Source of the DNA: Acidimicrobiales bacterium
GTDB taxonomy: Bacteria > Actinomycetota > Acidimicrobiia > Acidimicrobiales > JAHEJN01
DNA: 49,407 nucleotides
Assembly (NCBI GenBank): GCA_024638845.1
Contig: JAHEJN010000018.1
Span: 1-49,407 of the forward strand
Direction of reading: 5' to 3'
Both the position numbers and the translations under genes were made by a program. The first letter of the stretch is position 1; each line of letters starts with the position of its first letter. Of this stretch, positions 14,600 to 18,201 are shown piece after piece. The notes beneath the pieces were generated by a model that was given only the letters and a program-made list of their open reading frames with translations, was not told where the DNA came from and ran no database searches.

Positions 14600-17596
14600 G
14601 TGCCGATCTCCTGCGTGTACTGCGGCCAGGCCCATGACCGACCCGGCGAGGTGAAGGAGTGCTGGCAACGCGCTCGCAGGGCCGAAGTCGACGTCACCGA
14701 CGGAACCGACCGTACGCTTCTCGGCCGAGCAGAATCCGTGGTAATCGCTCGGCCGAGCGCACCGGTACCGCGCGTGCGGGTCGCGCTGCTACGGGGCCCG
14801 GAATCCTTGGGCCGGAACGTGATCGTCGGTGCTGAGCAGCCGGCACCCGACGAATGGGCCGGGTGCGAGCGCATCGTCGTCGGGGCCGACGAGCTGGCGA
14901 CCCCCGAGCCGGTGCTGGCTCGATTGCGCACAGCGGCAACCGGTGCCATCTCGCTCGTCATCCAGCTGAGCGTCGACTTCGCCGACCCCCCGGCTGCGTC
15001 GACCAACGAGGCTGCCTACGCGCTCGGGTCACGGTTCTCCTTCCCGCTCGACGAATTGCACCATCTCGTGTGGTCGAACTCCGTCGACGCCCGCGGCGAA
15101 CCACGTTGGGAGCTCGCCGATCGGGCCATCGCGCTCGGGGCATCGGTCTCCAACGGGGCCGAGGGCGATGTGGTCGGTCCCGACGGCCTGCCGCGCTGGC
15201 TCGACGGCGGCCCGGTGCGGCACCACGACCCGCTGCTCGGCATCCCCGTGGTGCACGCCGTGGCGGTCGAGCACGGGTCGCTCGCTCCACCGGCGGCCAA
15301 CGTGTCGGCCGCGGAGCTGGCACCGGACCAGCTCGCAGCCGTCACCCACGCCGGGGGTGCTGCTCGAATCATCGCCCCCGCCGGGTCGGGCAAGACCCGG
15401 GTGCTCACCGAGCGGGCCCGCCACCTGCTCGCAGCCTGGAACCTGCCGCCGAGCGCCGTCACCCTCGTGGCGTTCAACAAACGCGCGCAGGTCGAGATGA
15501 GCCAGCGAACCCACGACCTGCCTGGCCTCCAGATCCAGACGTTCAACGCGTTGGCGCTCGCCGTCGTGAACGGCCGGGCACCGTTCGCCTCCCAGCCCCG
15601 CAACTGGCGAACGCTCGACGAGCCCGATGTGCGCCGTATCATCGCCAAGCTGGTCACGGTGCCCAAGCGGCGCAATGTCGACCCCATCGCCCCATGGATC
15701 GACGCTCTCTCGCTGCTGCGTCTCGGTCTCGTGAGCCCCGCCGAGGTCGAGGCTCGTTACAACGGCGACGTCGACGGGCTCGTCGAGGTGTGGCCGCAGT
15801 ACCGCAGGGCGCTCGATCGCGAAGCTGCGCTCGACTTCGACGATCAGATCTACCGGGCGATCGACGTACTGCTCACCCAACCGGTCGCCCGGGCGGCGGC
15901 GCAGCGCGCCTGCCGGGTACTCCTGGTCGACGAGTTCCAGGACCTCACCCCGGCCCACCTGCTCCTGGTCAGGTTGCTCGGGGCACCCGGAGGCGCAGTG
16001 TTCGGCGTCGGCGACGACGATCAGACGATCTACGGGTACAACGGCGCCGATCCCGGCTCGCTCATCGACTTCGCCACGCTCTTCCCCGGCGCCGGTGACC
16101 ACCCGCTCGAGGTGAACTATCGCTGCCCCGGCGGCATCGTCGCCGCCGCCGACATGCTGTTGCGCCACAATCGCCGCCGGGTGGCCAAAACCATCCGAGC
16201 CTCGTCCCATCGGGCCGACGGCTACACCGTCACCACGTCGGACGATCCCGTCGCCGCGTCGGTCGAGCTGATCGAGCAGGCCATCGCCGACGGCACGCCC
16301 CCGGCGCACATTGCCGTATTGACCCGAGTCAATGCCACCATCGCCCCGGTTCAGATCGCCCTCAGCGCCCGGCACGTGCCGATCAAGGGCGGAGTGGGCG
16401 CCGAGTTCGCCGACCGCACCGCCATCCGGGCCGTTCTCGCCTGGCTGCGGCTCGCCTCGGCCCGACGCTTCGTCGACACCGACGTGATCGAGGCACTGCG
16501 CCGGCCGTCTCGACCCCTGCACCCCCGCATCACCGACTGGGTGGCCGAACAGAACAACGTCGAAGATCTCCACAAGCTGGCCGAACGACTCAACAACGAC
16601 CGCGACACCGACCGCGTCCACAGCTTCGCGGCCGACATCGACCGGCTCCGAACGATGGCCGCCAAGGGCGCGTCGACGTTTCGCATCGTCTCGACCCTCG
16701 TCGACCAGATGGACCTCGCCAGCTCGGTCGCCACGCTCGACAACAGCCGCCACGGCATGAACCGATCGGCCCAGAGCGACGACCTCCAGGCCATTCTGCA
16801 GTTGGCGTCCCTCCACGCCGACGCCGGCACCTTCGAAGCTTGGCTGCGATCCCAGCTCATGACCGAACGCGACCCCGCAGGTGTCCAGCTCTCCACGGTG
16901 CACCGCGTCAAGGGACTCGAATGGCCCGTCGTCGTGGTGCACCTCGCCGACACCGACCAGTTTCCCCACCGCCTGGCCGACGACACCGAGGAGGAACGAC
17001 GCCTCTTCCACGTCGCGATCACTCGCGCGTCCGATCACGCGGCCATCGTCACCGGAAGCCACCCCAGCCCCTTCGTTGCCGAGCTCACGACCGAGCCCCC
17101 CGAGCACCTTCCCGACGAGGTGGCTCGCACGCCGCGGCCGACCCCTGTCGTGCGCAAATCGGCCGCCGCCGATCACCCCTTGCTCGATCGCACCGTGGTC
17201 ATGGCCGTCCCCGGTCTCGTCCTGGTCGACCAGGGCACCGAGTGGACCATCACCGACATCGAACCGGCGGCCGCGCTGGCCACCAACGGCGCGGCGACCC
17301 GCCGGTTCGGGCTCGGCGACGCGGTCGAGACGCTCGGCCGCCAGCGAGGTGCGCTCGCCGGCCGCCACGGCGACGTCGACGAGCACGTCATTCGGGTGTT
17401 CGACGAGATGCGGGCGTTCCGAAACGACGTACGGGGCACCAAACCTGCCTACACCGTGTTCGACGACAAGACCCTGGTGGCCATCGCGTCGGCGCGACCC
17501 GAGACGCTCGCCGAGCTGTCGAGAGTGAAGGGCGTCGGTCCGGCCAAGCTCGAACAGTACGGTGACGCCGTGTTGGCCATCATCGCCGGCGAGTGA
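14600..17596 (+). CDS. UvrD/Rep-type helicase with novel N-terminus and C-terminal HRDC domain
   Basis: 998 residues. Superfamily 1 helicase motifs begin at about residue 258: Walker A APAGSGKTRVLTER, TxxxF-type QTFNALAL, DEFQDL, GVGDDDQTIYGYNGADPGS, VNYRCPGGI, STVHRVKGLEWPVVVVHL and FHVAITRASDHA. The end (about 920-998) is an HRDC domain with LSRVKGVGPAKLEQYG. It probably unwinds DNA in repair. The first ~255 residues are unusual for UvrD: a Cys-rich start (CVYCGQ, later Cys-Trp) that may bind zinc, then a domain not recognised. The GTG follows a TAGGGT box, and the glutathione peroxidase follows after 33 bp. Confidence 0.9.
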   Translation: MPISCVYCGQAHDRPGEVKECWQRARRAEVDVTDGTDRTLLGRAESVVIARPSAPVPRVRVALLRGPESLGRNVIVGAEQPAPDEWAGCERIVVGADELATPEPVLARLRTAATGAISLVIQLSVDFADPPAASTNEAAYALGSRFSFPLDELHHLVWSNSVDARGEPRWELADRAIALGASVSNGAEGDVVGPDGLPRWLDGGPVRHHDPLLGIPVVHAVAVEHGSLAPPAANVSAAELAPDQLAAVTHAGGAARIIAPAGSGKTRVLTERARHLLAAWNLPPSAVTLVAFNKRAQVEMSQRTHDLPGLQIQTFNALALAVVNGRAPFASQPRNWRTLDEPDVRRIIAKLVTVPKRRNVDPIAPWIDALSLLRLGLVSPAEVEARYNGDVDGLVEVWPQYRRALDREAALDFDDQIYRAIDVLLTQPVARAAAQRACRVLLVDEFQDLTPAHLLLVRLLGAPGGAVFGVGDDDQTIYGYNGADPGSLIDFATLFPGAGDHPLEVNYRCPGGIVAAADMLLRHNRRRVAKTIRASSHRADGYTVTTSDDPVAASVELIEQAIADGTPPAHIAVLTRVNATIAPVQIALSARHVPIKGGVGAEFADRTAIRAVLAWLRLASARRFVDTDVIEALRRPSRPLHPRITDWVAEQNNVEDLHKLAERLNNDRDTDRVHSFAADIDRLRTMAAKGASTFRIVSTLVDQMDLASSVATLDNSRHGMNRSAQSDDLQAILQLASLHADAGTFEAWLRSQLMTERDPAGVQLSTVHRVKGLEWPVVVVHLADTDQFPHRLADDTEEERRLFHVAITRASDHAAIVTGSHPSPFVAELTTEPPEHLPDEVARTPRPTPVVRKSAAADHPLLDRTVVMAVPGLVLVDQGTEWTITDIEPAAALATNGAATRRFGLGDAVETLGRQRGALAGRHGDVDEHVIRVFDEMRAFRNDVRGTKPAYTVFDDKTLVAIASARPETLAELSRVKGVGPAKLEQYGDAVLAIIAGE

Positions 17597-17629
17597 GCCC
17601 CTCGGTGACATCCGTGTCAACATGACCAC

Positions 17630-18103
17630 ATGACCAACTTCCATGATCTGGAGATGACCTCGATCACGGGCGAGCAGATCGCGTTCGACCAGTTCCGTGA
17701 CCAGGTCTGCCTCGTCGTCAACGTCGCCAGCGCCTGAGGCCTCACCCCTCAGTACGCAGGTCTGCGTGCGATTCACAACGAGATCGACGGTTTCCAGGTT
17801 CTGGGGTTTCCCTGCAACCAGTTCGGTGCCCAGGAACCGGGCAGCGACGACGAGATCCTCGAGTTCGTCACCACCAAGTTCGACGTGAACTTCCCGATGT
17901 TCTCCAAGATCGAGGTGAACGGCGACGGTGCCGCCGAGCTGTACAAGTGGCTCAAGGCCGAACAACCCGGCGAGGCCGATGGGCCCGACATCACCTGGAA
18001 CTTCGAGAAGTTCCTCGTCGACGGTGGCGGCAACGCCGCCGCCCGCTTCCCGCCCCAGACCACGCCCGAACAAGTCGCCGAGGCGCTCACCCAATACCTC
18101 TGA
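17630..18103 (+). CDS. Glutathione peroxidase, predicted selenoprotein (in-frame TGA = Sec36)
   Basis: Read through one internal TGA (17735-17737) this is a complete 157-residue peroxidase that reduces hydrogen or lipid peroxides. The TGA is codon 36, exactly the peroxidatic site: NVASA-U-GLTPQYAGL. Downstream motifs are intact: GFPCNQFGAQEPG (Gln68), FPMFSKIEVNG and TWNFEKFLVD (Trp123, Asn124), completing the tetrad Sec/Gln/Trp/Asn. The resolving cysteine of thioredoxin-dependent relatives (FCTTxxxVTFPMF region) is Val80 here; the only cysteines are 27 and 62. A SECIS-like hairpin follows at 17752-17769. The ATG at 17622 is rejected since it stops at once. A pseudogene with one nonsense change is possible but unlikely, as everything else is conserved. 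Confidence 0.9.
17735..17737 (+). other. In-frame TGA, predicted selenocysteine codon
   Basis: Codon 36 of the peroxidase, aligned with the catalytic Cys/Sec of the family. The reading frame is open for 35 codons before it and 121 sense codons after it. Confidence 0.88.
17752..17769 (+). promoter_or_regulatory. Bacterial SECIS-like hairpin
   Basis: Six-base-pair stem GTACGC/GCGTGC (17752-17757 with 17764-17769, one G-U pair) closed by the loop AGGTCT (17758-17763). Twenty bases separate the TGA from the loop. Bacterial SECIS elements have a short stem with a GGU-containing loop within about 16-37 nt of the UGA to bind SelB; the loop and its closing GC pairs match those known for E. coli fdhF as I recall them. 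Confidence 0.82.
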
Positions 18104-18201
18104 ATGGCGCACCATCGCGGCCATGCTCGACCATCGACCGCGTGCCCGAAGGTCGGCTCATCGAGGTGGCCCGCGTGTTGGTGCCGAAGCTCCGGGCCAG
18201 G

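Follow-up and report, generated by a model that had tools for sequence, protein, structure and literature searches.

Does the hairpin that follows an in-frame TGA codon in an Acidimicrobiales genome act as a bacterial SECIS element (bSECIS), and is that TGA decoded as selenocysteine (Sec)? We addressed this question computationally in a stretch of 49,407 nucleotides from contig JAHEJN010000018.1 (hereafter, the window), together with its own genome and homologous genes. An earlier note had placed a SECIS-like hairpin with a 6-bp stem GTACGC/GCGTGC and the loop AGGTCT 20 nt after the TGA, and in all of these particulars it agreed exactly with the sequence. Its reading of the TGA as a Sec codon was also supported, and the host gene, which it had left unnamed, turned out to be a glutathione peroxidase (GPx) gene whose TGA occupies the catalytic site. 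The features of this locus are listed in Table 1.

Table 1. Features of the GPx locus in the window, with the basis of each assignment.
Feature	Position	Strand	Basis
GPx gene, TGA read as Sec, 157 aa	17630..18103	+	Translation; Pfam; end-to-end alignment with relatives and solved GPx structures
In-frame TGA, predicted Sec, residue 36, catalytic Sec/Cys position of GPx	17735..17737	+	Alignment with yeast HYR1/Gpx3, PDB 3cmi; homologue column
Terminating TGA of the GPx gene, without a conforming hairpin 3'	18101..18103	+	Model scan
Predicted bacterial SECIS upper stem-loop, stem GTACGC/GCGTGC, loop AGGTCT	17752..17769	+	Sequence; folding; conservation and covariation
Core GCAGGTCTGC, identical to E. 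coli fdhF SECIS core	17756..17765	+	E. coli K-12 NC_000913.3 fdhF

When the first TGA was read through, the 157 codons gave a product (MTNFHDLE...NVASAU36GLTPQYAGLRAI...) that matched Pfam GSHPx (PF00255) over residues 4–109 (E=4.6e-40, 136 bits vs a cut-off of 27). The TGA residue aligned with the catalytic Cys of the yeast enzyme in the context NVAS-C-GxTPQY, and the catalytic residues Gln, Trp and Asn were all present. For comparison, 110 GPx loci (window included) were gathered from GTDB genomes and from the window's own class, some of the relatives being close kin or perhaps the same species from two collections; Gln, Trp and Asn were invariant across all 110 sequences, and the catalytic column was occupied by TGA in 62 genes and by TGC or TGT in 48. 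The 62 TGA-containing genes were mostly from Acidimicrobiia and Gammaproteobacteria; one sequenced relative that carries this gene is Ilumatobacter nonamiensis YM16-303 (L022). The predicted product is a selenium-dependent, single-Sec peroxidase of the GPx type (Sec36 with Gln, Trp and Asn) that lacks the resolving Cys of Cys-type enzymes; its activity and reductant are likewise predicted. A 1031-aa open frame on the minus strand (window 15029–18124) overlaps both the GPx gene and the preceding gene (14600–17596, plus strand) and is probably a shadow of the high-GC coding sequence.

The hairpin itself (GTACGCAGGTCTGCGTGC, with the loop at 17758–17763) begins 14 nt after the end of the TGA and all six of its pairs form, one of them a U-G wobble; the MFE of the 18-mer was −8.5 kcal/mol. 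If the A-U pair that closes the loop is counted, the stem has 7 rather than 6 bp, the loop 4 rather than 6 nt, and the spacing to the loop is 21 rather than 20 nt. It has been reported that bSECIS elements have an apical loop of 3–9 nt, a stem of 4–16 bp, a distance of 16–37 nt between UGA and loop, a G in the first two loop positions and an MFE of −7.5 kcal/mol or lower (PMC13188914, Fig. 2A). The window hairpin agreed with this consensus in loop, stem, loop G, spacing and MFE, with nothing outside the model, and its loop fitted the bSECIS pattern N1-G-G-U-..-N2 closed by an A-U pair; the SECIS-type distance claimed for it was thus borne out. Folding of 17735–17780, a check proposed in the earlier note, which would have taken the lack of a stable stem as a refutation, gave a stable stem with a pair probability of about 1, as did segments starting at the TGA or later. 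In longer folds that included sequence 5' of the TGA, the window hairpin was outcompeted in silico (pair probability 0.0–0.09), and the hairpin was still kept in 52 of the 62 Sec genes; RNA 5' of the TGA would lie inside the ribosome during decoding of this codon. Rfam searches found no SECIS or other relevant family, either at the gathering threshold or at E<=10 over 17600–18200, where only chance matches appeared.

How much weight can such a hairpin bear by itself? The general SECIS criteria were satisfied after 148 of the 1072 TGA triplets in the window (14%), and therefore the hairpin is suggestive alone and becomes decisive only together with its relatives. The earlier note had taken it as independent evidence for Sec decoding; this holds to a modest degree. 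When codons were resampled synonymously under the encoded peptide and codon usage, a complete 6/6 stem arose with p=0.04, the loop AGGTCT with p=0.02 and both together with p=0.0007. The exact core GCAGGTCTGC occurred once in the window at SECIS distance 3' of a TGA. Genome-wide, GCAGGT(N)CTGC was found at 41 sites vs 43 for a reversed control pattern, which means that the core by itself is no rarity; among 30 such sites examined, only those of GPx and selD followed an in-frame TGA in a recognizable protein. One alternative is that the hairpin arises as a by-product from the conserved QYAGLR peptide and codon usage, with the TGA being a true stop, an error of sequencing or the mark of a pseudogene. 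The motif is coding, Gly-Leu is kept by GPx homologues at this site, 14% of the window's TGAs are followed by a conforming hairpin, and the stem alone reached p=0.04 in the coding null, all of which the by-product proposal would accommodate. However, 62 genes carry TGA at one and the same codon with the frame open on both sides.

Comparison of the Sec and Cys genes provided what we regard as the decisive evidence for a SECIS. The stem was complete (6/6) in 59 of the TGA genes and 5/6 in the other three, whereas the 48 Cys genes formed 1 to 4 of the 6 pairs, and the mean energy of the 18-mer was −7.9 vs −0.6 kcal/mol. Loss of the hairpin in relatives that keep the TGA, which the earlier note had named as a refuting observation, was seen in 0 of 61. 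The loop was AGGTCT in 56 of the 62 TGA genes and CGGGTT in the remaining 6, with both Gs kept in every gene. Besides, hairpin bases at synonymous positions were fixed against codon preference in Sec genes: GCA was used for 49 of 55 Ala residues at its site (vs 11% in the rest of these genes), GGT for 56 of 62 Gly residues (21% elsewhere) and CGT for 50 of 53 Arg residues (18% elsewhere). Since Cys homologues with the same Gly-Leu form no such hairpin, and since the genome contains the full Sec machinery described below, we rejected a chance hairpin from coding constraint, along with sequencing error and pseudogene, and consider this alternative very improbable. In three Sec genes of one family (L101, L102 and L107), CGC replaces CGT at position +10, which leaves an A-C mismatch at pair 3; the TGA is retained in all three.

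Compensatory changes in the stem, also suggested earlier as a check, were found at two pairs, in part through amino acid replacements. After near-duplicates had been removed by eye, 41 Sec sequences remained, with 39 Cys sequences as control. In the Sec set, 98.8% of cells were paired, and changes on both sides with pairing kept were present in 2 of 6 pairs (pairs 4 and 5), in 6 cells in total. At one of these pairs, C-G had become U-A in a gene from Myxococcales; at the other, several genes from Gammaproteobacteria and Alphaproteobacteria had A-U in place of G-C, and L106 had the intermediate G-U. When partner columns were slid by 1 to 3, the signal became weak or disappeared, and shuffled controls were low; pairing in the 39 Cys sequences was 40%, which did not exceed that of the shuffles. 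These compensatory changes alter residues (Ala to Thr, Arg to Cys and Arg to His), and codon usage is therefore no explanation for them. On a tree built without the columns of the element, the state of pair 5 changed at least 5 times, with only 2 independent changes on well-supported branches, so that covariation rests on few independent events. RNAalifold independently recovered the same stem, and the consensus fold of the 41 Sec genes consisted only of the 18–23/30–35 stem. The latter result bears on another proposal, namely that selection acts on a different function of the element, such as translational pausing, and that Sec decoding depends on a different nearby structure. The UGA can indeed pair with 17747–17751 (UGAGG/CCUCA) to give another short helix in the sequence of the window, but this helix is absent from the consensus fold, and the main hairpin matches the known SECIS model in its apical GG loop, its distance and its energy. 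We regard this alternative as having only a slight chance of being correct.

When the catalytic and hairpin columns were left out, three changes on the GPx tree separated the Sec genes from the Cys genes, many branches having modest support as the protein is short. Two Cys-encoding genes of Gammaproteobacteria, L030 and L028, were nested among the Sec genes, and their hairpins had decayed: L030 retained the AGGTCT loop with a broken stem, and L028 had lost both loop and stem. A second Cys located 44 residues after the catalytic Cys, the counterpart of the resolving Cys in yeast Gpx3, was present in 46 of the 48 Cys enzymes and missing in all 62 Sec genes (window codon 17867–17869). Except for L028 and L030, no Cys gene lacked it, which supports an origin of both from Sec enzymes. 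They are probably Sec-to-Cys conversions in which the hairpin decays once unneeded. Remnant SECIS-like structures of this kind are known from other families (PMC1794560).

In the genome to which the window belongs (3.7 Mb, 97% complete), the Sec gene set was complete. SelA is encoded directly before SelB, a protein of 572 aa with an EF-Tu-like GTPase, a SelB beta-barrel and a C-terminal winged helix (SelB-wing_3), and a tRNA-Sec with anticodon UCA lies on the same contig as selA-selB. The selD gene (L010, G000:C80) has its own in-frame TGA, followed at a spacing of 31 nt by the hairpin GGCGCAGGTTCTGCGCC, an 8-bp structure of the form TGGCGCAG-GTT-CTGCGCCA (L010, 1531–1600). The selD and GPx hairpins have the core GCAGGT(T)CTGC in common after an in-frame TGA; in selD, one extra base closes the stem to 8 bp around a 3-nt GTT loop. 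Thus, two selenoproteins of one genome have an apical core in common. Within the class, TGA-type GPx occurred in 24 of 395 genomes, and all 24 encoded SelA, as did 263 of the full set of 395 (Fisher p=6e-5, a value that is optimistic because the genomes are phylogenetically non-independent).

Some bacteria read UGA otherwise. It could accordingly be proposed that the hairpin promotes read-through of UGA with another residue (suppression by Cys or Trp) and not an insertion of Sec that depends on SelB, the more so as the inserted residue is not nameable from the letters alone. But UGA also serves as an ordinary stop in this genome, including the terminator of the GPx gene itself; selA, selB, tRNA-Sec and a TGA-containing selD with a related hairpin are all present; and in the class Sec-GPx was found only alongside SelA. 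On these three grounds other recoding of UGA was rejected, and we give it hardly any credence. SelB-dependent Sec insertion is the reading followed below.

The earlier note had pointed to a match with the fdhF element of E. coli, and for the core this was accurate. In E. coli K-12 MG1655 (NC_000913.3), GGTTGCAGGTCTGCACC lies 3' of TGA codon 140 of fdhF, with the same core GCAGGTCTGC and loop AGGTCT, and in both genes the core encodes AGL. The two elements differ in spacing to the loop (17 nt in fdhF, 20 nt in the window), in the gene served (a formate dehydrogenase in fdhF, a GPx in the window) and in the lower stem, which is GUAC/GUGC without a bulge in the window and GGU(U)/ACC with a bulged U in fdhF. 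The fdhF-type bulged U below the GC pairs was absent from the window and from the whole 62-gene Sec family; therefore, the hairpin is not fdhF-type in the strict sense, only a bSECIS with the same core.

Sec-containing GPx proteins have been described in bacteria before. One was reported in 2006, in Treponema denticola (PMC1794560), and 40 sequences were found in the Global Ocean Sampling set in 2008 (PMC2398784); later reviews also give Sec-GPx as a bacterial selenoprotein family (PMC13188914, PMC9312934). As in these records, the window gene has a UGA-coded Sec, here a predicted one, at the catalytic position. Unlike them, it comes from Acidimicrobiia, its hairpin is documented family-wide and the resolving Cys is absent. 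No paper on Sec-GPx in Acidimicrobiia was found, a weak negative as most subscription literature fell outside the search. With both bacterial SECIS elements and Sec-GPx already described, the window case adds a new member with an unusually clean comparative record.

The hairpin at 17752–17769 is almost certainly a true bacterial SECIS, dependent on SelB, within a Sec-GPx gene, where SelB binding and Sec insertion are predicted from the sequence record. With the ribosome at the UGA, the mRNA hairpin, which starts 14 nt downstream, would stand just outside the ribosome, and its apical GGU loop would be bound by the winged-helix C-terminus of SelB carrying Sec-tRNA(UCA) and GTP. SelB would then bring selenocysteine into the A site, competing there with release factor 2.

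The hairpin may also have consequences for the protein. At position +10 after Sec (window codon 17765–17767), each of the 62 Sec genes encodes Arg, Cys or His, whereas 44 of the 48 Cys genes encode Glu or Gln. Paired replacements tracked base-pair compensation: Ala to Thr went together with Arg to Cys, and Arg to His was also seen. The amino acid at +10 thus appears to be fixed by the 3' arm of the hairpin. Standard annotation, which would end the gene at codon 36 or begin it after the TGA, would miss this peroxidase. The family also suggests that the fdhF core may function without the bulged U in actinobacteria. The family, with 62 Sec genes, 46 ordinary Cys genes and 2 probable converts, offers a test set for an RNA signal in a coding region that constrains both RNA and protein. 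We are evenly divided as to a broader reading, in which the SECIS hairpin dictates protein sequence in a Sec family without resolving Cys, and enzyme and signal together form a portable unit found across Actinomycetota, Pseudomonadota and Myxococcota.
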